From contig JAHDCO010000042.1 in NCBI GenBank assembly GCA_020629835.1, forward strand, positions 1-34,237: a stretch of DNA of 34,237 nt, in the 5' to 3' direction. Both the position numbers and the translations under genes were made by a program. This DNA is from Granulosicoccaceae bacterium. GTDB lineage: Bacteria; Pseudomonadota; Gammaproteobacteria; Granulosicoccales; Granulosicoccaceae. Below, piece after piece: positions 13,683 through 26,239 of the stretch (positions are counted from its first letter, which is position 1; each line of letters opens with the position of its first letter). The notes beneath the pieces are model-generated. The model saw only the letters and a list, made by a program, of their open reading frames with translations, was not told the origin of the DNA and did no database searches.

Positions 13683-14312
13683 TCAACGCTGCCCTTGAGC
13701 GAGCAACCAGGCTCCCCCTCCCAGTAAGAAGGTTCCGGATATCCGTTCGAGCCATACCACACGCGTATGCGTCAGCCATTTACCCGCTTTGCCTGCAGCA
13801 AAGGCGTACAAGCTGTCTAATACGCCACCCACCAACATAAACAGTAGGCCAAACGCAAACACTTGCGGTATCACAGGTTGAGCGGGATTAACAAACTGGG
13901 GAATGAAAGCCCCAAAGAAAAATAGCGCTTTCGGATTTGCGAGAAGCACAAAAAACCCTTGCCAGAAATAGCGCATGGCCGGCAAGGAGCTTCCGTTGTT
14001 GCGTAGCTCTAAGGTGGCACCACGCGCTCGCCACAACTTAACGCCCAAGTACATCAGGTAGGCAGCGCCAACAATGCGCACCACGGTAAACACTGGAGCA
14101 ATGGCCGACATCAGCGCGCCGAATCCGAATGCCAGGATGGTAATGAGTACAAACAGCCCCAGCTGCGTGCCAAGCACATTCCACAAACCCGCCCGGGCAC
14201 CCGCGGCCAAGCTGTTAGCCACAATCACCGTAACGGTCGGCCCGGGCACAGCCACGATTGCAGCCGATGCCAAAACAAAAACAAGAACCGTCGAGAAGCT
14301 GTCAATTGGCAA
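13683..14312 (-). CDS. LysE/RhtB-family amino-acid exporter
   Basis: An inner-membrane exporter of 209 aa with six predicted helices. The family hallmark [18 protein letters not shown] lies in the first helix region, followed by [12 protein letters not shown] and [28 protein letters not shown] is the conserved mid-protein block. Family members expel amino acids such as homoserine, threonine or leucine; here the substrate is unknown. The start is a TTG inside the leuS end (11-bp overlap), so translation probably depends on ribosomes finishing leuS. An exporter coupled to leucyl-tRNA synthetase is suggestive but not evidence for leucine export. Confidence 0.87.
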
Positions 14313-16902
14313 CGATGTTCACCAGTTTCCCAGGAACGACAATGACTTTTCGCACTGTTTTTCCCTCGAGGTTTTTAGCCACGTTATCGTCTTCCATCGC
14401 TGCCTTTTCGCAGTCTTCTTTCGACGCGGTTGCGGCAACAATCATTTCTCCACGCCGTTTGCCGTTGACCTGTAGCACCATCGTAAGGCTGTTTTTCACT
14501 AAGGCCTCTTCATCCACTTCCGGCCACGCCTCATCGATCAATGCTGATTCATAACCCAAACCTGCCCACATCTGGTGAGTAATGTGTGGCGTGAACGGAC
14601 TCAATAAACGCACGAGTACGCTGAACGCTTCATGCTGCACAGCAAACGCACTCGGACCACGTTCGTCAAAACGACTGGCTTCATTGAACAGCTCCATCAT
14701 CGAGGCGATGGCTGTGTTAAACGTGTAACGGCGTTCAATGTCATCGGTGACTTTGGCGATGGTTTCGTGAGTTTTGCGTCGTAAGGCGCGCTCGGCTTCG
14801 TTCAATTCGTCTGGCTCATACGCGTGCTGACCAGCGTCATCGGGTAATCGCGACACTTCGCGCCATACCCTGCGCAAGAAACGGTTCATGCCTTCAACAC
14901 CCCCGTCCTTCCATTCCAGCGACTGGTGAGGAGGGCTATCACTCATTGAAAACAGTCGTACCGTATCGGCGCCGTAACGATCAATCATTTCCAAAGGATC
15001 AACGCCGTTATTCTTCGACTTTGACATCTTTTCAATACGGCCAACGGTGACCGGCTTACCGTCAGTTTTTAACGTAGCGCCCGAAATTCTTCCCTTGTTG
15101 TCGTATTCCAGATTTAGTTCGCGTGCATTGAAATACTCTGGCTTACCTTCATCGTCACGGTAAAACGTTTCCGCAATCACCATGCCTTGCGTTAACAACC
15201 GGGTGAACGGCTCATCAGAATCGATTAGCCCCACATCGCGCATCAACTTATGGAAAAAACGCGCGTACAGTAAGTGCAGCACGGCATGCTCTACCCCACC
15301 GATATATTGATCCACTGGTAGCCAGTAATTGGCTCGGCTATCCAACATTTGATCAGCGTCCGGGCACGCATACCGGGCGTAGTACCAGCTGGATTCAAAG
15401 AACGTATCGAAGGTATCGGTTTCACGAATACCCGGTTCGTCAGTACCGGGAACCGTTGTGTTTATAAAATCCGGATCGTCTTTTATGGGTGATTTGACAC
15501 CGGAAAATGCCACATCCTCCGGTAATACAACGGGCAAATCGGATTCGGGTACGGTGTGCGCGTTTCCGTCCTTGTCATAAATAATCGGGATGGGACAACC
15601 CCAGTAGCGCTGACGGGACACGCCCCAGTCACGCAAGCGATAGTTCACTTTTTTATCGCCATTTGCCGATTCAGCTAAGAAATCAGCCGCCGCCTGAAAG
15701 CAGGCTTCAAAATCCAATCCATCAAACTGCCCCGAATTAATGGCCACAGTATTGGTTTTCTCGGTAAACGCTTGCTCAGTGACATCGACCGGTTCTACCG
15801 TTGATTGCACCACCTGCTTAATCGGCAAACCGAATTTTTTTGCAAATTCAAAATCGCGCTGATCATGGCCGGGAACCGACATCACAGCGCCCGTGCCGTA
15901 GGTCATCAAGACAAAATTGGCAACGTACACAGGAACCGCTTCACCCGATATCGGGTTAATCGCTTCAATGCCTAATGGCACCCCTTTCTTTTCAAGCTTC
16001 TCCATTGCGGCTTCGGAGGTGCCGGTTTGCTTGCAGTCCTCAACGAAGGCTTTAACGTCCGCATTCGATGCGGCTGCAAAGGTGGCTAAGGGGTGTTCTG
16101 CAGCCACCGCCATGTAGGTAACGCCTGCCACCGTATCCGGGCGCGTGGTGTACACCCGAATCGCCGATACATCACCAATGGGTCCGTTCGCCAGAGCAAA
16201 GTCAAACTCCACACCTTCAGACCGACCAATCCAATTGCGTTGCATGGTCCGAACGGCGTCTGGCCAGCCTTCCAGCTTTTCAGTTTCGGCCAGCAGTTCG
16301 TCGGCGTACTGGGTAATTTTTAAAAACCACTGGGATATTTCGCGCCGCTCCACCAAAGCGCCGGAGCGCCATCCGCGACCTTCAGCATCCACCTGCTCAT
16401 TCGCAAGAACGGTTTGCTCAACCGGATCCCAGTTAACGGTAGCCATTTTTTTGTACGCCAGGCCTTTTTCGACCAACTTGGTAAAGAACCACTGTTCCCA
16501 ACGGTAGTACTCGGGCGTGCAGGTTGCGAATTCGCGGGACCAGTCATAGGCGATACCCATACGCTGCAACTGCTCACGCATCTCATCGATGTTTTGGTAA
16601 GTCCATTTGGCAGGCGCTGTATTGTTTTTGATGGCCGCGTTTTCAGCGGGAAGTCCGAACGCATCCCAACCCATAGGCTGCAGCACGTTGAACCCCTGCA
16701 TGCGCTTGTAGCGTGAGAGCACATCGCCGATGGTGTAGTTACGTACGTGGCCCATGTGAAGGCTGCCGCTGGGGTACGGGAACATACAAAGGCAGTAATA
16801 CTTCGGCCGAGATTCGTCCTCAGTAACCTGGAACGCGTTGTTCGCGTTCCAAACATCTTGCACGTGCGACTCTACCGATGTGGCGTCGTACTCTTCCTGC
16901 AT
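14302..16902 (-). CDS. leuS: Leucyl-tRNA synthetase
   Basis: Charges tRNA-Leu with leucine in the cytoplasm. At 866 aa it has the bacterial length. The class I signatures are intact: HMGH at residues 49-52 and KMSKS at 625-629. The CP1 editing domain sits between them (TTRPDT region near residue 250), and WGCPIP and the C-terminal anticodon and KGE-type domains follow. Unlike in most gammaproteobacteria it is not followed by lptE-holA; instead a LysE-type exporter overlaps its stop by 11 bp. cobT ends 41 bp upstream, so leuS may be read from the phyH/cobST promoter as well as from its own, which I cannot see. Confidence 0.97.
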
Positions 16903-16943: not shown

Positions 16944-18701
16944 CTAGCGCATGCGCCCTGCAAACAAGGCGTGTAATACACGGTAACTGGCCTGGCCCAG
17001 GGTGCCGTTGAGATCCAGGCCCACACTGTTGTGATAGGTGTCGGATAAATCCAGGTCAATACCGATAGCGCCGAGATGTACGGGCGTTTGCTGTTCAATA
17101 TGATGCGCCACGTCGCGCAAGTGCTGATCCAGAAAGCCATCGGGGTTGTTGTGGTGTGTGGCAGCATCCATCGGTGCGCCGTCAGAAATAACCACCAGGA
17201 ATTTTTGTGCCTCGGACTGGTTGCGCAATCGACGATAGGCCCACAACAGCGCTTCACCATCAATGCCCTCCCGAAAATGCAAGGTTTCGAGCAGGCTTGC
17301 CATACCCAAACGGGCACGACGCCAGGCCGTGTGTTGATCCTTGTAAACAACATGCATGGCCTCGCCCAGGCGACCCGGTTCCTCAGGCATGCCGGCTTTA
17401 CGCCAGGACTCCATCGCTTTTCCACCGTTCCAATCACCGGTGGTAAAGCCTAAAACCTCGGTGGTCACCCCGGCTAGCTGAAGCGCTCGGCAAAAGGTAT
17501 CGATTAAGGTTGCAACCGCCACAAAGCGCTGGCGTTTCATCGATCCTGAGTTATCGATTAAAAACGTAACGGCAGACTGGGACTTTGGCTGCTGACGCCG
17601 CTGCACAAAGACTTGCTTGTAATCAGGGTTACTGACCAGCTGCGCCAGTCGGCGTGCGTCTACTAACCCGGCTTCCTGACCAAACAGCCAGCCGTCGTCT
17701 TGCGGCTGGGAGAAAAGATGTTGCAGCTCCCTGGCCAGGCGAGGAACGCTAACCGCCTGCGCTAACACGTGCCGGTCCAGGTCAGCTCGTAGCTCAGCCC
17801 GTTTGGCTTCTCGATACAGCGATTCACCGGTGACTTCTTTATCGAACTCGGTGGTGTACACGTGATACCCGCCAGCGGTATCCAGCAAGGATTCATCGAG
17901 GATGTCAGCTTCAGGCATTGAGCCTGCTGCCCCCTCGCCCACTTCGTCAACCCCATCGCCATCCCAGTCCGGCGGCAGGATAATGGAGTGTCGCTCCTTA
18001 ACCGACTCCACGTCAGTGTCATTGGATGCGTCATCGTCGATCATGGCCGACAGTTTGTTGGCCATAGACAAGGCCTGTTCCGCAAACGCACGCTGATCAA
18101 AGCGATCTTTCTTGAAGGCGTAAAGCTCGTGACCAATCACGGGCGACAAGTTCGCACGGGTAGCTTCCACGAGAGCTTCCGCCGTTTCATCTTCAATGGT
18201 ACTGACCAGTCGAGCCCTTACCATGTGCACCACGGTATAGAGCAGGATGCCCAAAGCGCTGTCCGCCATGCTGCCTCCATGCACGGTTTGGCACCACTGA
18301 ACGAATGCAGCATCCAGGTTTTTGCGAATGCCGCGCATCGATTCATCAGCTAAGGATTCACAACGCAGTTGTTCGAACAGATCGAAGAAGATCCGGGCAA
18401 TACCATCTTCGGGCGCTAGCGACTGGTGCAACGCACGGTCACTGTGGCGCAGGCGAAGGCCCAGAGAATCGGCGATACCTCGGCTTCCCTGCATGGACGA
18501 TTCAGCAAAGGACACCCCCAGATGCGGGCTGGCAAAACCTTGCGCTTTGTGGGCTACTCGCAAGCGGCTAGCACGGTATTCAGCATCCGGAACACCACTT
18601 AACGCTCTTAACGAGGCGGCACCATGACGTTCCAGCTGGCGCGTCCGAGTTAACTCGTTGGAGATACCCGTGGCCGACTCATTGGAACTGTTATTCACCA
18701 T
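16944..18701 (-). CDS. cobT: CobT-like VWA-domain protein (cobaltochelatase subunit family)
   Basis: In aerobic cobalamin synthesis CobT joins CobS to form the ATP-driven chaperone that helps CobN insert cobalt. The 585-aa protein has an N-terminal alpha-helical CobT domain (residues 10-220), an acidic linker (220-280, many D/E) and a C-terminal von Willebrand A domain. The metal-binding MIDAS is intact: DNSGS at 383-387, TTGDWNGG near 421 and ISDGAP near 507. It overlaps cobS by 11 bp. No cobN or other cob gene is visible, so a role outside B12 is possible; the name gives the family only. Confidence 0.88.
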
Positions 18702-19671
18702 GGTGGGCGATGGAACTGCTTAATTCTTCGCCTAACGCACGCTGGTAGTACTCCGCCACAATGCTGTGTTCGGCATCGTCACATTTGTTCAGGTAACTCA
18801 GCTCAAACGCTTTGGTGACATCGTCAAAGATGGCGATGTTCTCTGCCCAGGTAATGACCGTTCTGGGTGACATCACCGTGGATACATCGCCAGCAATAAA
18901 ACCATCGCGGGTTAACGCGGCCAAGGCCACCATCGAATTGACCAATGCCTGGCCGTCGGCACGCTCTTGCATGGCAGGTACACGTGCATTCACGATAGAG
19001 GCTTCAGCTTCGGGTGCCAGATAGTTCAGCTTGGAGACGATGTTCCAGCGATCGATCTGTGCCTGATTGAGTACCTGGGTGCCGTGGTACAGCCCGTTCA
19101 AGTTACCCAAGCCGATGGTGTTAGCCGTGGCAAACAGTCGAAACGAGGCGTGTGGATTGATCACTCGGTTTTGATCCAGCAGCGTGAACTTTCCATCGCG
19201 CTCCAATATACGCTGGATAACGAACATCACATCGGGTCGCCCCGCATCGAACTCGTCAAAGATCAATGCAACAGGACGTTGCAGCGCCCACGGCAGGATG
19301 CCTTCCTGAAATTCTGTGACTTGCTGGCCGTCCTTCATGACGATGGCGTCACGGCCTACCAGATCCAAACGAGAGATGTGGCCATCCAGGTTGACGCGTA
19401 CGCAAGGCCAGTTAAGTCTCGCCGCGACTTGCTCGATGTGCGTAGATTTACCCGTGCCATGGTAGCCCTGGACCAGCACTCGCCGGTTTTGACTAAAGCC
19501 TGCCAAAATTGCCAGGGTGACGTCACGGTCGAAGCGGTATGCCTCATCGATCGCAGGCACATGTTCCGTACGTTCGCTGAACGCAGGTACTCTTAAGTCA
19601 CTGTCGATGCCTAAGGCTTGACGAACGGAAACGGTGGTATCGGGCAAGCCGTGGTCTGTATTCATGTCCAT
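18691..19671 (-). CDS. cobS: CobS-like AAA+ ATPase (cobaltochelatase subunit family)
   Basis: A MoxR-type AAA+ ATPase of 326 aa, partner of CobT. It opens with [15 protein letters not shown], typical of CobS. It carries Walker [10 protein letters not shown] (residues 69-77), Walker B LIFDEFD (136-142) and the sensor-1 segment FATANTIG. In cobaltochelatase the CobS hexamer stacks on CobT and uses ATP to drive CobN. I place the start at the ATG at 19671, which fits CobS length; the frame runs open to a TTG at 19707. The adjacent upstream gene on the same strand is the phyH-type dioxygenase, 78 bp away. CobN is missing from the neighbourhood. Confidence 0.9.
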
Positions 19672-19749: not shown

Positions 19750-20502
19750 TCAGCTGACCGGGATATCGTCAAAAACCGAGGAACGCGTCTCGGGAATGGG
19801 CTGGTTACTTCCCGCGCGGTAGGTATAAACCAATGTACGTTTCACGGTATTCGATTGGTTTTGTCCCGCCGCATGCAGTGTTTTGGAATGAAAGAACAGT
19901 ACGTCGCCTCGCTCAAGCTCTACCGGCGTGGCAGTAGCAAGCAGCGCTTCATTTTCTGGAATGTCGGTGCGCAAAAATAACGACGCATCAAAACGGCCGG
20001 GGTCGAGCTCCCACTTGTGTGACCCGGGCATGACCAGTAAACAGCCGTTGTCGACGTTTTCAGGCCCCAGAGCCAACCAAACACTGACAAGCTCCGGCCG
20101 ATCAAAACGCCAGTAGCGAATGTCCTGATGCCAGCTCGTGACGCTGGAGTACCCGGGGTGCTTCGTCATCACGCAATTATGGTGATTCTGGGACAGCAAG
20201 ATTTCCTGTGCGTCCATTAGCGCTTGCAGCGTTTCAACAATTTTGGGGTGACGGCCGATTGCCTGAAACTGCTCGTCCCGGCTGTAAGCATGCAAAAGCC
20301 GCCGAGGGGTATTTCCGCCAGGCGCCACTCGGGATTCGGGCGCACCCGGGTAATGCACATCCGCTTCAAACTCCACTGGAGCCAATGCCGGTTTCAGTGA
20401 TCGATCAATAAGCTCAACCAGACGACCCGCAGCCCTCTCGTCAATTAACCCACGCCGGATCAGATACCCGTTATCCGCGAACGACTGAATTTCCTCTTCC
20501 AT
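19750..20502 (-). CDS. Phytanoyl-CoA dioxygenase (PhyH)-family protein
   Basis: A non-haem iron, 2-oxoglutarate-dependent dioxygenase of 250 aa. The iron-binding facial triad is visible as His and Asp in SWHQDIRYW and a distal His in KTLHAAGQN, with the 2-oxoglutarate-binding Arg probably in TYRAG. LLVMPGSHKWE is the usual PhyH block between them. The substrate is unknown; members hydroxylate lipids, ectoine, antibiotics and others. I chose the ATG at 20502 because GGGAG lies about 9 nt upstream; longer starts reach 20664 and would overlap uvrA. It is the first gene of the leftward operon and is divergent from uvrA. Confidence 0.85.
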   Translation of the reverse strand: MEEEIQSFADNGYLIRRGLIDERAAGRLVELIDRSLKPALAPVEFEADVHYPGAPESRVAPGGNTPRRLLHAYSRDEQFQAIGRHPKIVETLQALMDAQEILLSQNHHNCVMTKHPGYSSVTSWHQDIRYWRFDRPELVSVWLALGPENVDNGCLLVMPGSHKWELDPGRFDASLFLRTDIPENEALLATATPVELERGDVLFFHSKTLHAAGQNQSNTVKRTLVYTYRAGSNQPIPETRSSVFDDIPVS

Positions 20503-20546
20503 TGCCCACTCCCAATCTAAATACCGTGATGGATACGGCCGAGCCA

Positions 20547-20576
20547 TTGCTTGGCTCAACTTTATACGGATATAAC
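20547..20576 (+). promoter_or_regulatory. Weak candidate promoter upstream of uvrA
   Basis: TTGCTT at 20547-20552 and TATAAC at 20571-20576 with 18-bp spacing give a moderate sigma70 match, about 75 bp before uvrA. No LexA box (CTGT-N8-ACAG) is seen in this region, so classic SOS control is not evident. Confidence 0.35.
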
Positions 20577-20650
20577 ACCGTTGGGTGCGCTCTTTTCCTG
20601 AAGCAGAATGCCTATGAACTTCCAGCAAGTGAACCGCGTAACATGACGGT

Positions 20651-23600
20651 ATGAGTAAACACATCGTGGTGAAGAACGCTCACCAAAACAACCTCAAACA
20701 CCTTAACCTGAAATTACCGCTTGGCGAGTTGATTGTGGTAACCGGTGTCAGTGGGTCCGGAAAATCAACGCTAGCGTTTGACACTATCTATGCCGAAGGC
20801 CAACGCCGCTATGTGGAAACCTTTTCACCCTACGCTCGGCAGTTTCTTGATCGCATGGATAAGCCAAGTGTGGACAGTATTGAAGGCATTCCACCGGCGA
20901 TCGCGATTGACCAAACCAACCCGGTAAGAACGTCACGCTCAACGGTCGGCACCATGACCGAGCTGAACGACCACATCAAGTTATTGTTTGCCAGAACCTC
21001 GGCTCTGTACTGTGGCGGCTGCGGTGCGCCGGTAAAACGAGATTCTGCGCAAAACATCTGTCAACGCTGGATGAGTGATGAGGGCGCGCGCGCGATGGTC
21101 ACATTTGAAGTGCCCATACCCGATAACTTTTCCCAGGAAGAAATCACCGACTGGCTTGGCCGCCAAGGGTATACAAGAACGCATCAATCGACAGACTCAA
21201 CGATCGAAGTCATTCAGGATCGCGTGACCACCAACAGCGAGAACCTGGGCCGGTTTACTGAAGCTGTAGAAACCGCGCTGCGTTTTGGTCGGGGCAAGGT
21301 AAAGATTTACCCGCTGAACACAGACAAAAGTGTTGGATCACCCCACGCATATTCTGTCGCGTTGCGATGCGAGTCGTGCGACAGGCGCTATCGTGAACCG
21401 ACCCCTAGCAGTTTTTCTTTCAACTCACCCATCGGGGCCTGCGACGACTGTAAAGGCTTTGGTCGCGTAATGGGAATCGATCACCGCCTGGTTATTCCAG
21501 ACCACAGCAAAACCCTGGCAGAAGGAGCGGTAAAACCCTTTCAGACTGAGTCAAATAAAATTTGCCAAAGCGACCTGGTGCGCGAAGCCAAAGCACAGGG
21601 CATTCCGTTGGACGTGCCATGGGAATCCATGTCTGCGGATGACCAGGCCTGGGTTGTTCACGGGGATGGAGGTAAGCGACGCGGTGGTAAACGCAGTAAA
21701 CATCACTGGTACGGCATCGATGGTTTTTTCAATTACCTCGAAAGAAAAGCTTACAAGATGCACGTGCGCGTGTTCTTGTCCAAGTACCGCAGTTACGAGC
21801 CATGCACGACGTGCAACGGTGCCCGTCTGAAGGCCGATTCCCTGAACTGGCGTGTGGGCTCTTTTAAACAAGCCAGTGACGTACTTGACCCGGCGGATCG
21901 CTATTACCCTGCCAACACACCAATCAAAACCGCCGTGAGAGAGGCGTTACCTGGCTTAACCATCGTAGACATGATGCGCCTGCCGTTGAGCACACTGCAA
22001 ACGTTTATTGCAGATGTCGTCAGTACCGATGCGGACGAAGCAACCGCATTGGTTTTGTCAGAGATGCGATCACGCCTTCAATATCTAAACGATGTAGGGC
22101 TGGGCTACTTAACACTGGATAGGCAGTCTCGAACCTTATCGGGTGGCGAGGTACAACGAATCAATTTAACCACCGCCTTAGGCACGTCACTGGTCAATAC
22201 ACTGTTTGTTCTGGATGAACCCAGTATTGGGTTGCATCCTCAGGACATGGACAGAATTGTGCGCGTGCTGCAGCGTTTGCGTGACGCTGGCAACACCTTG
22301 ATTGTTGTTGAGCACGACCCTCAGGTGATGTTCGCAGCCGATCGGATTATTGATATGGGCCCAGGGCCGGGCAAGCTGGGTGGATCCATTACTTTCAACG
22401 GTAAACCACCGTCATTGCTGAGCAGCACAAAATCCTTAACAGCAAAATATTTGGCTGGGCAAACATCACCAACGCCAGAGAAAAACAAACGAGCGAAAAG
22501 CCCAGGCAAGCTACACCTGAAAAAAGCAACGGGCCATAATTTAAAAAATATCACGGTCAGTTTCCCGCTGAATCGCTTGGTGGTTGTAACCGGCCCCAGT
22601 GGTTCAGGTAAGTCGACACTGATACATGACACCTTATATCTATCACTGCTCAGCGCTTTCGGCACACCCAAAGATTTACCCGAACCACATGGTGCATTAA
22701 CAGGCGTAGAGCACATCGATCAAGTCGTCATGGTTGACCAATCACCGATCGGCAAATCGGCGCGTTCCAATCCCGTCAGCTATACCGGCGCATTTGAAGC
22801 CATTAGAAAAGTGTTTGCGAATAATCCGGAAGCGAAAGAACGTGGCTATAAAGCGAGCTCTTTTAGCTTCAATAGCGGTATGCGATGCCCGGTGTGTTCG
22901 GGTAATGGGTTCGAACACGTAGAGATGCAGTTTTTAAGTGATGTGTACTTACGCTGTGGCGAATGTCAGGGCAAACGGTACCGCCCTGAACTCCTGGAAA
23001 TAAAAGTATTTTCTGACACCCGCTCCGAAGGGTTGTCCATTGCAGACGTACTGGATATGACAGTGGATGATGCCCTAGCGTTTTTTCATGATGACGATAA
23101 AGTCACGCTAGGTCTTAAGCCCTTAAAGGATGTCGGTTTAGGTTATGTACAACTCGGGCAACCCGTACCCACCTTAAGTGGCGGTGAGGCACAGCGTTTA
23201 AAGTTGGCTGCACACCTGGTGCAAGCCGAGGCCGCTTTGCGCAAGCGCAATGCGGTTCAAACTCACACCCTATTTTTGTTTGATGAGCCAACCACCGGGT
23301 TACATTTTGACGATATCGCAAAATTATTAGGAGCCTTTGAACAGCTAATCGATAAAGGTCACTCGTTAATCGTTATTGAGCACAATTTAGATGTCATAAA
23401 ACACGCGGATTGGTTAATCGACCTGGGGCCTGCAGGCGGGTTAGCCGGTGGCGAAGTTTGCTTCACCGGTACACCAAAAGCCATCTGCAACCACGAGACA
23501 TCAGTGACCGGAAAAGCACTGTTGGCTTACGAGGCCTCGACTACAGATCTGCGCGTAGCATCGGGCTTTTCAACTCAGGACAATCAGATTGCTGAAGACG

Positions 23601-26239
23601 CGTTTATACAAAACCAGGCCCTAACTCAGGATATTCGCGTTCAACACGCACGTGAACATAACCTTAAAAACGTGGAGGTCTCCATTCCCCGCGATAAGCT
23701 GACGGTCATCACCGGCATGAGCGGTAGTGGCAAAAGCACCCTGGCGTTTGACATCGTTTTCAATGAAGGCCAACGTCGATACCTGGAATCACTAAACGCT
23801 TACGCGCGCCAATTTGTCCAGCCGGCCGCTCGTCCGGATGTAGACGCCATTACCGGCATCCCACCAACCGTTGCCATTGAACAACGCACCAGTCGTGGTG
23901 GCCAGAAAAGTACGGTAGCTACCATGACCGAAATCTACCATTTTCTACGGCTTATGTTTGTAAAACTGGGTGAGCCTTATTGCCCGGATTGCGGTGTAGC
24001 CATTTCCGCACAGTCGGTGGACGCTATCACCGCACAGGTGATGAAAAAACACAAAAATACCGACGTGGCTGTTTTCGCTCCGTTGATTGTTGATCGAAAA
24101 GGCTATTACACCGATTTGGCAAAGTGGGCACTGAAAAAAGGCTTTTCTCACTTACGTGTAGATGGTGAGCTCACGCCCACTGATGACTGGCCACGTTTAG
24201 ATCGCTTTAAAGAGCACACCATTGATCTACCGGTGGGAGTCGAAAACGTTTCTGCCAAGAACGAACCGGCCGTTCTGGCCTTGATTCAACTGGGTTTGGA
24301 TTATGGCAGCGGGGTGGTGAAAATTGATAAACACCAGCCCAACGCCAAAACCCGAAAATCGCCCGGCTCTGAAACTTTGTTTTCAACGCAACGTGCTTGC
24401 CCCAGTTGCCAGACCAGTTTTCCCGAACTAGACCCCCGTATGTTTTCCTACAACAGTAAACATGGGTGGTGCCCAGCCTGCTACGGCACGGGTATCGATA
24501 TGCCTGAGATGAAAGAAGAGGAGTTACAGGAAGGTGCAGACATCACCGTAGCAAGTTCTGAGGATGATAGCGAACCGAGCCAATGTGATTGGTGTCAGGG
24601 CCAACGGCTCAAACCTGAATCGTTAAATGTCTACTTCAAAGACTACAACATCGCTGAGTTAACCGAATTATCAATCAAAGACGCTGCAGTCTTGTTTGCC
24701 AAGCTGAAATTAACCGAACGCGAAGCAGCCATAGCCCGAGATAGTATGCAGGAGCTAATATCTCGCTTGAAGTTTTTGGATGAAGTAGGTTTATCCTACC
24801 TACAGCTCAACCGCGCCGCGCCCACCCTCAGCGGAGGCGAAGCCCAGCGTATTCGCCTCGCCGCACAGTTGGGTTCGAACCTACGGGGCGTGTGCTACAT
24901 ACTTGATGAGCCAACCATTGGCCTGCACCCGCGTGATAACCGAATGCTGCTGGATACGCTCGGTAAATTGCGTAAAAAGGGAAACACCATTGTTGTGGTT
25001 GAGCATGATGAGGAAACCATCAACAGTGCCGAACACGTTATCGACATCGGACCGGGCGCCGGTGTACGAGGTGGCGAAGTAGTGGCCACCGGTACGGTCG
25101 CTAAAGTGAAAAATAACAAAGCATCGATCACCGGCCGGATGCTGGCGAATCCCCTTAAACACCCGCTATACAAGCCACGCACGAAAGCAGAAAACGCCAT
25201 CACCATTCAGGGTGCGCATTGTCATAACTTAAAAAACGTCAACGCCACCATTCCACTTGGGCAATTGGTTGGCGTTAGCGGCGTTTCGGGATCAGGAAAA
25301 AGTACCTTGGTGCGTGATGTGTTGCACGATAACCTGCGCGTTATCAACGGTAAAAAGCGTAATCGCAGCTTAGGCGCTGTCAGTGGTTGTCAGGCTATCG
25401 AAGGTTGGGAAACCATCGATCGCGTATTAGAAGTTGACCAAACCCCCATTGGCAAAACCAGCCGTTCCTGCCCTGCTACGTATATCGGGTTTTGGGACAA
25501 CATCCGCCGCTTGTTCGCCGACACCACAGAAGCTCGAATACGAGGCTACACCGCCAGTCGCTTCTCTTTCAATATGAAAGGTGGGCGTTGCGACGAATGC
25601 GATGGCCGCGGTATGCAGCGCATTGAGATGAGTTTTCTACCTGACGTGAAAATCCCGTGTGAGGTATGCAATGGGGAGCGCTTTAACCAAGAAACGCTAT
25701 CAGTGCGTTATCGAGGTAAGAGTATTGGTGATGTTTTAAAGATGAATGTTGACGAAGGTGTGGAATTTTTTGAAGCACACAACTCCATTCACCATGCGTT
25801 GAAGTTACTGCAAGATGTTGGCTTAGGCTACCTAACACTAGGCCAGCAAAGCCCCACTTTAAGTGGCGGTGAAGCGCAACGCATCAAGCTTGTCAGTGAA
25901 CTGGCCAAGGCCAAGCCTGTACTCAAGGACTCCTCTGGCAAGGCGGTTGTTTCTGTGCACACGCTGTACATACTCGACGAGCCCACCGTGGGTTTGCACA
26001 TGGCGGATGTTGAAAAACTCATCCATGTATTGCATCGATTGGTGGAATCCGGCAATTCAGTGGTTGTCATTGAACACAACCTGGATCTCTTGGCCGAAGC
26101 CGATTACCTGCTGGATATGGGTCCTGAAGGTGGTAGCGGTGGCGGTAAGGTCATTGCCAAAGGCCGCCCTGCACAGGTTGCTAAATCTAAAACGTCTCGC
26201 ACCGCACCGTTTATTAAAGAGCTGCTGGAGCGGCCGTAG
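20651..26239 (+). CDS. uvrA: Tandem-duplicated UvrA excinuclease ATPase (double length)
   Basis: UvrA detects bulky DNA lesions and loads UvrB in nucleotide excision repair. This 1862-aa protein is two UvrA units in one chain (normal length about 940). Four Walker A motifs have their Lys at residues 38, 654, 1028 and 1550. Four ABC signatures start near 496, 842, 1393 and 1737 (LSGGEVQR, then three LSGGEAQR). Each half keeps CxxC-type zinc modules (for instance CESC/CDDC and CPSC/CPAC; CPVC/CGEC and CDEC/CEVC) and a reduced UvrB-binding-like insert. A fused form should fold as an internal dimer. Similar long UvrA proteins exist in some bacteria; a separate normal uvrA may exist elsewhere. There is no clear Shine-Dalgarno. 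Confidence 0.93.
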   Translation: MSKHIVVKNAHQNNLKHLNLKLPLGELIVVTGVSGSGKSTLAFDTIYAEGQRRYVETFSPYARQFLDRMDKPSVDSIEGIPPAIAIDQTNPVRTSRSTVGTMTELNDHIKLLFARTSALYCGGCGAPVKRDSAQNICQRWMSDEGARAMVTFEVPIPDNFSQEEITDWLGRQGYTRTHQSTDSTIEVIQDRVTTNSENLGRFTEAVETALRFGRGKVKIYPLNTDKSVGSPHAYSVALRCESCDRRYREPTPSSFSFNSPIGACDDCKGFGRVMGIDHRLVIPDHSKTLAEGAVKPFQTESNKICQSDLVREAKAQGIPLDVPWESMSADDQAWVVHGDGGKRRGGKRSKHHWYGIDGFFNYLERKAYKMHVRVFLSKYRSYEPCTTCNGARLKADSLNWRVGSFKQASDVLDPADRYYPANTPIKTAVREALPGLTIVDMMRLPLSTLQTFIADVVSTDADEATALVLSEMRSRLQYLNDVGLGYLTLDRQSRTLSGGEVQRINLTTALGTSLVNTLFVLDEPSIGLHPQDMDRIVRVLQRLRDAGNTLIVVEHDPQVMFAADRIIDMGPGPGKLGGSITFNGKPPSLLSSTKSLTAKYLAGQTSPTPEKNKRAKSPGKLHLKKATGHNLKNITVSFPLNRLVVVTGPSGSGKSTLIHDTLYLSLLSAFGTPKDLPEPHGALTGVEHIDQVVMVDQSPIGKSARSNPVSYTGAFEAIRKVFANNPEAKERGYKASSFSFNSGMRCPVCSGNGFEHVEMQFLSDVYLRCGECQGKRYRPELLEIKVFSDTRSEGLSIADVLDMTVDDALAFFHDDDKVTLGLKPLKDVGLGYVQLGQPVPTLSGGEAQRLKLAAHLVQAEAALRKRNAVQTHTLFLFDEPTTGLHFDDIAKLLGAFEQLIDKGHSLIVIEHNLDVIKHADWLIDLGPAGGLAGGEVCFTGTPKAICNHETSVTGKALLAYEASTTDLRVASGFSTQDNQIAEDAFIQNQALTQDIRVQHAREHNLKNVEVSIPRDKLTVITGMSGSGKSTLAFDIVFNEGQRRYLESLNAYARQFVQPAARPDVDAITGIPPTVAIEQRTSRGGQKSTVATMTEIYHFLRLMFVKLGEPYCPDCGVAISAQSVDAITAQVMKKHKNTDVAVFAPLIVDRKGYYTDLAKWALKKGFSHLRVDGELTPTDDWPRLDRFKEHTIDLPVGVENVSAKNEPAVLALIQLGLDYGSGVVKIDKHQPNAKTRKSPGSETLFSTQRACPSCQTSFPELDPRMFSYNSKHGWCPACYGTGIDMPEMKEEELQEGADITVASSEDDSEPSQCDWCQGQRLKPESLNVYFKDYNIAELTELSIKDAAVLFAKLKLTEREAAIARDSMQELISRLKFLDEVGLSYLQLNRAAPTLSGGEAQRIRLAAQLGSNLRGVCYILDEPTIGLHPRDNRMLLDTLGKLRKKGNTIVVVEHDEETINSAEHVIDIGPGAGVRGGEVVATGTVAKVKNNKASITGRMLANPLKHPLYKPRTKAENAITIQGAHCHNLKNVNATIPLGQLVGVSGVSGSGKSTLVRDVLHDNLRVINGKKRNRSLGAVSGCQAIEGWETIDRVLEVDQTPIGKTSRSCPATYIGFWDNIRRLFADTTEARIRGYTASRFSFNMKGGRCDECDGRGMQRIEMSFLPDVKIPCEVCNGERFNQETLSVRYRGKSIGDVLKMNVDEGVEFFEAHNSIHHALKLLQDVGLGYLTLGQQSPTLSGGEAQRIKLVSELAKAKPVLKDSSGKAVVSVHTLYILDEPTVGLHMADVEKLIHVLHRLVESGNSVVVIEHNLDLLAEADYLLDMGPEGGSGGGKVIAKGRPAQVAKSKTSRTAPFIKELLERP

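Follow-up and report, generated by a model that had tools for sequence, protein, structure and literature searches.

A CobS/CobT-type MoxR/VWA pair strongly associated with core Xsc probably serves C2-sulfonate breakdown

The window, by which we mean the whole stretch of 34,237 nucleotides analysed here from a Granulosicoccaceae bacterium, contains a two-gene unit encoding a CobS-like MoxR AAA+ ATPase and a CobT-like VWA protein. As described in the initial annotation, the two reading frames overlap by 11 bp and the pair sits between a dioxygenase gene, phyH, and leuS. The features are as follows.

16944..18701, minus strand: CobT-like VWA protein of class C, 585 residues, an open frame; Pfam CobT at residues 28-230 and CobT_C at residues 364-575
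18691..19671, minus strand: CobS-like MoxR AAA+ ATPase of class C, 326 residues, an open frame; Pfam CobS_N and AAA_5
19441..19467, minus strand: Walker A of CobS, residues 69-77, GYHGTGKST; G69 and H71-T77 unchanged across 8 CobS sequences of class C
19243..19269, minus strand: Walker B region of CobS, residues 135-143, ALIFDEFDA; D139 and E140 unchanged across 8 CobS sequences of class C
17541..17555, minus strand: MIDAS DxSxS of CobT, residues 383-387, DNSGS; D383, S385 and S387 invariant in 11 Granulosicoccaceae members
17181..17183, minus strand: MIDAS acidic residue of CobT, D507 in SDG; invariant in 11 Granulosicoccaceae and 20 wider members
19750-20664, minus strand: phyH, flanking the pair on the cobS side; Pfam PhyH above its cut-off
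14302-16902, minus strand: leuS, flanking the pair on the cobT side

Matches to CobT_C, CobT, CobS_N, AAA_5 and PhyH all pass the Pfam cut-offs. In the 20 wider members, the first Asp and last Ser of the CobT DxSxS motif are invariant and the middle Ser is kept in at least 90%. Walker A, Walker B and MIDAS are the customary motif names for these families, and D507 is the presumed acidic residue of the MIDAS. Open frames, Pfam matches and residues conserved in relatives confirm that the pair is real and that its ATPase and MIDAS motifs are intact: it is a MoxR AAA+ protein with intact Walker motifs and, in the same operon, a VWA partner with an intact MIDAS. Both proteins score below the NCBIfam equivalog models for the cobaltochelatase subunits, CobS with 527.8 bits against a cut-off of 558.55 for TIGR01650, and CobT with 307.5 bits against 759.05 for TIGR01651. 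In Foldseek, a structure model of CobT (mean pLDDT 80.9, pTM 0.63) is matched best by the NorD VWA domain from NorQD complexes (E 4.4e-08); the model does not indicate a client. Of the 29 open reading frames called in the window, 23 were scanned with Pfam and two, LeuS and UvrA, with NCBIfam alone; among these 25 no cobalamin gene besides CobS and CobT was found, so that the earlier description of a window lacking CobN and other cobalamin genes holds for these 25 of 29. The UvrA frame (20651-26239, 1862 residues) is about twice the usual length and looks like two UvrA copies in one frame.

The initial annotation suggested that this CobST acts without CobN, on another target, and that cobN and corrin-ring genes be sought throughout the genome. 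The host assembly, at 97.13% completeness, totals 4.34 Mb over 149 contigs. Its single match to PF02514 lies on contig C38 inside a bch cluster, whose genes we name from family knowledge as bchI, acsF, puhA, lhaA, bchM, bchL, bchH, bchB, bchN, bchF and bchG. The sole match, standing amid bch genes, is therefore BchH, and a CobN hidden elsewhere in the host genome was rejected, BchH being its only protein of the CobN family. PF02570 (CbiC/CobH), a marker of corrin-ring synthesis, is absent from the host genome; the same search finds CbiC in 3 of 48 Granulosicoccaceae genomes. The host assembly thus has CobST without CobN. The cluster on C38 makes the host look like an aerobic anoxygenic phototroph of the Granulosicoccaceae. 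A second CobST, of class A, lies where host contigs C65 and C107 end, and these breaks seem to truncate its cobT.

Profile searches find CobT_C in 45 of the 48 Granulosicoccaceae genomes, in several score groups. Class A CobT scores about 300-336 bits for CobT_C and has cobS adjoining; class B, together with a small further group, scores about 221-285 bits and lacks cobS where the flanks were examined; class C scores about 144-166 bits and occurs in 11 genomes, the host included. Class B CobT without adjoining cobS (L049-L053, L056-L058, L066, L068) is found beside genes for a dynamin-like GTPase, a ComF-like protein and OmpA. PF02514 is matched in 15 of the 48 genomes, 6 of them at 1290 bits or more, which is CobN-like by score, while the others score like BchH. 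CobT without CobN is accordingly the rule among these 48 genomes. One genome, G047, 100% complete, encodes a CobN-score protein with no match to CobT_C or to CbiC. Among 50 genomes behind loci related to class C, CobN is present in only 9; this count, and the lack of CobN and CbiC/CobH in the host, support the suggestion of a CobST that works without CobN on some other target. The premise that cob genes usually cluster did not hold in two alphaproteobacterial records, where genes for BolA and J-domain proteins neighbour canonical cobST and the annotation shows no further cob gene within 9 kb.

The order uvrA, phyH, cobS, cobT, leuS, eamA is kept across the Granulosicoccaceae class C loci. All 11 have cobS-cobT-leuS-eamA, and phyH precedes cobS in all 8 that retain that flank, the other 3 of the 11 being cut by contig ends. 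Such constancy could be read as the mark of a pair that matures the neighbouring PhyH-type iron dioxygenase, as had been proposed at first. The predicted order phyH-cobS-cobT was indeed found in relatives within the family, but not beyond it: by tblastn, neither phyH nor leuS lies near cobST in any of 56 class C-search loci outside Granulosicoccaceae. Moreover, the block also holds uvrA, leuS and eamA, and a relative without class C, G020, keeps uvrA-phyH-leuS-eamA with cobST missing. PhyH was therefore rejected as the partner, and maturation of the dioxygenase by the pair is extremely unlikely. LeuS was rejected as well, since it adjoins cobST only in Granulosicoccaceae. Because the order is conserved inside the family, a lack of conservation in relatives, which the initial annotation had named as the finding that would count against PhyH, could not have exposed the misreading.

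Class C forms a group of its own. Compared with class A of the same family, its CobS proteins are 61-65% identical and its CobT proteins 30-33%. A search with the class C alignment against 84,980 species genomes returned 66 loci. They come from Granulosicoccaceae, from other Gammaproteobacteria and from Actinomycetota, where most are titled Acidimicrobiales. In a CobT tree of 56 rows, a branch supported at 100/100 separates all 32 class C rows, together with L166, a lower-scoring row on a long branch, from the rest; the tree is midpoint-rooted, and the term clade assumes a root outside class C. Three candidate relatives, L129, L131 and L132, fall outside class C in this tree, were rejected, and are therefore dropped from the class C counts. 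One locus titled Acidimicrobiales, L076, has a CobT nested among Granulosicoccaceae and an Xsc that groups with Acidimicrobiales, with similar G+C content in the two stretches (57.7 vs 57.0%); it may represent transfer of cobST into an Xsc-bearing genome, or a binning fault.

The identity of class C CobS to class A CobS would suit an ordinary cobaltochelatase whose cobN was missed or whose cobyrinate is scavenged, and a study of Granulosicoccus, in its accessible portion, counts cobS and cobT as aerobic cobalt insertion (PMC9238374). Against this stand the lack of CobN and of CbiC/CobH in a 97.1% complete genome, the presence of CobN in just 9 of the 50 related-locus genomes, a CobT far under its equivalog cut-off and in a separate clade, and a class A CobST already present in the host. 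We regard a chelatase role as highly unlikely, and class C CobST is filed here as a MoxR/VWA-type pair, not as a cobaltochelatase.

The genes found beside class C cobST in other lineages point elsewhere. Xsc is a thiamine-diphosphate enzyme of taurine breakdown that converts sulfoacetaldehyde and phosphate to acetyl phosphate and sulfite. Class C loci were found by CobT likeness alone, and xsc was then scored by thresholded tblastn; linkage counts come from tblastn in place of our gene calls, which were made with a crude longest-frame script that performs poorly in G+C-rich loci, where long opposite-strand frames occur. Of 53 class C loci outside Granulosicoccaceae, 22 contain Xsc and 35 contain at least one sulfonate gene; several of the loci without one are short contigs. 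By the same tblastn scoring, sulfonate genes are found in none of 23 class A/B loci and none of 11 other non-C CobST loci; a sulfonate link for class A/B CobT of Granulosicoccaceae was rejected on the former count. Nor does xsc adjoin cobST in any of the 11 Granulosicoccaceae class C loci, so within that family the link rests on co-occurrence; physical linkage of xsc to the pair is seen in actinobacteria, Burkholderiales and several Gammaproteobacteria.

In 17 actinobacterial loci xsc precedes cobS in the same orientation, at a distance of no more than 212 bp; in an eighteenth, L114, it lies 1.9 kb upstream, and in a nineteenth, L098, a piece of xsc is cut by the contig end. The gene upstream of cobS in one actinobacterial locus scores 987.8 bits as sulfoacetaldehyde acetyltransferase, against an NCBIfam cut-off of 676.4. 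Aeromonadaceae class C loci contain a SulP transporter and TRAP components (Pfam/NCBIfam). Phosphate acetyltransferase genes near class C cobST score 297.6-312.4 bits, close to their cut-offs, and the taurine transporter-like TauB and TauC score below theirs. A PF03601 gene, presumably of the family of TauZ-type sulfite exporters, adjoins cobST in Motiliproteus and Pseudomonas kuykendallii. No large CobN-like gene recurs in the class C neighbourhoods listed from the crude gene calls, which suggests that the pair probably acts on its client in trans.

Plasmid-borne copies were sought in a protein search that matched 821 records, of which the best 15 were listed and 10 of these examined. By best reference 7 of the 10 are class C, 6 from Burkholderiales and 1 from Photobacterium, and among the matches listed each of the 7 carries xsc and pta no more than 9 kb away. 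Neither gene is found with the remaining 3 (Pandoraea, Rhizobium, Cereibacter), which are nearer class A. Paraburkholderia phymatum STM815 and Caballeronia sp. NK8 are culturable, non-pathogenic bacteria with class C cobST beside xsc, and the public annotation of Caballeronia sp. NK8 shows pta, xsc, an AAA ATPase and a 'cobalt chelatase' together. In the Pandoraea oxalativorans plasmid pPO70-1 (L205, 3375-10833), ureC to ureD run on one strand and ureG-cobS-cobT on the other; this CobST, nearer class A, thus lies beside the genes for urease, a nickel enzyme. CobT-like VWA pieces also occur on hundreds of enterobacterial plasmids, and SSU5-kind phage records label such pieces 'porphyrin biosynthesis protein'; CobT matches in phage records were partial only, none covering 80% of the query.

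Genome-wide co-occurrence was assessed for two forms of Xsc: 'core' Xsc, at least 62% identical to the core Xsc of Granulosicoccaceae, and the other main form, 45-48% identical to it. In an Xsc tree of 71 rows, the strict core clade holds 59 (support 98/99). All 52 rows from class C genomes fall inside it, and the 12 rows outside it come without class C. Seven core rows carry no class C label (G144, G139, G279, G002, G037, G041, G042), one of which, G144, is class C by the CobT tree. Many rows entered this tree on the strength of class C in their genomes, which leaves the genome draws as the fair tests. As for residues special to core Xsc, ten alignment columns, including 4 in the stretch 26-39, set it apart from three near relatives, which are too few outgroups for these residues to be relied upon.

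Among the 48 Granulosicoccaceae genomes, core Xsc (at least 1020 bits) is present in 11 of 11 with class C and 4 of 37 others (Fisher P 6e-8, a value that ignores shared ancestry). The four non-C assemblies with core Xsc are G002, G037, G041 and G042; in these, leuS was not found at E <= 1e-100, and it was found in 4 of 4 controls. Since leuS flanks class C in every Granulosicoccaceae locus, the class C locus may simply be unassembled in all four.

The genome draws assign class C by bit score, with a limit set after the score gap was seen; G144 is class C by tree at only 424 bits, so the limit can miss true members. In an even draw of 369 Gammaproteobacteria, 7 genomes have core Xsc; these include all 4 genomes that score as class C, and also G144, with cobST beside pta and tauABC. 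The last two of the 7, G139 and G279, belong to one genus and have no CobT match at the limit used. Of the 7 genomes in this draw with lower-scoring, non-C CobT, 5 have the other form of Xsc. A second even draw, of 398 Pseudomonadota and partly overlapping the first, gave class C CobT at 530-818 bits in 7 genomes, with the next score at 461, and core Xsc (77-100% identical) in exactly those 7. The other Xsc form is the only one in 20 genomes of this draw, many of which have tauR or pta next to xsc; none of the 20 has CobT at the class C level. In 6 of the 7 class C genomes cobST and xsc share a contig, adjacent on opposite strands in 4 and separated by 21 and 28 kb in 2; only in the host genome are they apart. 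The 7 genomes represent 4 genera, and P values ignore ancestry. Within genus g279, two genomes have both class C and core Xsc and a third, G517, has neither at the limits used.

Across genomes behind named loci, Xsc is present in 43 of 50, or 43 of 47 once the three tree-excluded loci are removed, and 6 further loci outside this count have xsc beside cobS in every case. Class C occurs without Xsc in the genomes of L082, L093, L112 and L130, of which L112 (Motiliproteus) is an isolate genome that lacks Xsc and has CobN. Transporters and upstream pathway genes vary among class C genomes.

The association of class C CobST with core Xsc is strong. The missing linkage in Granulosicoccaceae, the four class C genomes lacking Xsc, core Xsc without class C in G139 and G279, and the other-form Xsc of the 5 genomes with non-C CobT count against Xsc as the client. 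The association could still reflect a shared lifestyle or joint transfer, with the pair serving a tetrapyrrole or metal enzyme unrelated to taurine. Ten gammaproteobacterial loci (L080, L081, L082, L091, L094-L097, L100, L104) carry no sulfonate genes upstream of cobS but, on the opposite strand, hemH, cbiX or a small EamA gene, and urease genes adjoin other CobST. Yet every one of those ten genomes except that of L082 has Xsc, hemH and cbiX are absent from the loci of other lineages, and a match with core Xsc that does not extend to the other form is hard to obtain from lifestyle. This explanation is very unlikely.

A rather unlikely but more plausible alternative is that the client is another protein of the sulfonate pathway, such as the aldehyde dehydrogenase, aminotransferase, transporter or exporter, which merely accompanies core Xsc; genes for aldehyde dehydrogenase, SulP, TRAP, PSE, Pta and TauABC do adjoin class C cobST in several lineages. 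None of these is common to all lineages, however: TRAP and SulP belong to Oceanospirillaceae and Aeromonadaceae, TauABC to the actinobacteria, and PSE to two loci, whereas Xsc is the one common gene. Genomes with the other form of Xsc, moreover, keep tauR or pta and manage without class C; this favours the enzyme over the pathway as such.

Class C CobST has therefore probably left cobalt insertion and serves the breakdown of C2 sulfonates such as taurine, with core Xsc its likeliest client. That Xsc itself is the client we infer from linkage, co-occurrence, the separate clade, the intact motifs and a genome that lacks CobN; a pair that travels with one form of Xsc is probably the dedicated helper of that enzyme. 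More specifically, there is about an even chance that class C CobST works as an ATP-driven activase dedicated to core Xsc, perhaps as one case of a wider habit. In such a mechanism the CobS ring and CobT would dock on Xsc through the VWA/MIDAS domain, and ATP would then be spent in remodelling it. Remodelling might free a dead-end cofactor adduct from Xsc, as CbbQO does for Rubisco, or it might load or order the thiamine diphosphate-metal site, in the way that NorQD inserts iron. The activase option is slightly favoured by the nature of the proposed client, a soluble metabolic enzyme. The wider habit is suggested by loci L065 and L067, where a CobT paralogue lies beside a lipoyl-ligase-like gene (scanned) and genes resembling those for E1 alpha, E1 beta and E2 of a 2-oxoacid-type dehydrogenase, which we take to be thiamine-dependent on family knowledge.

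Three characterized systems offer comparisons. The nearest solved sequence relatives of both proteins are the CobS and CobT chains of CobNST (PDB 9ujv, 9uka), which share the two-gene order and domain plan of the class C pair; class C differs in that no CobN or corrin pathway was found with it, in scoring below both equivalog cut-offs, in its separate clade and in its linkage to xsc. In the available parts of two papers, NorQ and NorD are described as MoxR and VWA partners responsible for iron insertion into NO reductase (PMC9976466, PMC13036017). They too combine MoxR and VWA proteins with a dedicated client, and the NorD VWA domain is the top structural match of the CobT model, but the NorQD client is a membrane haem enzyme and there is no sequence-family match beyond the domains. 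CbbQ and CbbO, the Rubisco activase, are described in the available part of a third paper as a MoxR/VWA pair that frees inhibited enzyme (PMC4660213). Here the likeness is to the proposed working mode, in which a soluble metabolic enzyme encoded beside the pair is rescued from dead-end complexes; the proposed class C client is by contrast a thiamine-diphosphate enzyme. In sequence, class C CobS does not qualify as CbbQ-type: it matches CbbQ chains weakly (E 3.5e-07 and 5.1e-07), compared with 1e-159 or better for CobS chains (best 2.3e-160). The known Xsc/taurine clusters (tauABC, tpa, xsc, pta) contain the same pathway genes that surround class C cobST in several lineages. No CobST or MoxR partner of Xsc or the taurine pathway was found in the literature searched, nor was any paper naming both 'sulfoacetaldehyde' and 'MoxR' in that literature, from which subscription journals were largely absent. 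'Sulfoacetaldehyde' and 'CobT' are mentioned together there in one paper, whose accessible text concerns methanogens. A paper on taurine in a sponge symbiont names tauABC, tpa and xsc, with no mention of MoxR or CobT found in the available part of its text (PMC10356861).

If the proposal is correct, annotation would need correction, because cobS and cobT are currently taken as evidence of B12 synthesis. In kelp Granulosicoccus, going by the accessible portion of the report, all 8 genomes were credited with 'insert cobalt ... (cobS and cobT)' and 1 of 8 with corrin-ring genes (PMC9238374); of our 48 Granulosicoccaceae genomes, 45 have CobT, 3 have CbiC and 6 have a CobN-score protein. Xsc would be a new class of client for MoxR/VWA machines, and the pair would provide a test system, in culturable bacteria, for MoxR/VWA action on a soluble enzyme. 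The proposal would also explain why one form of Xsc has a helper and the other, by this survey, has none. Class C CobST would then be a chelatase motor turned into an enzyme-repair machine for the use of taurine carbon.
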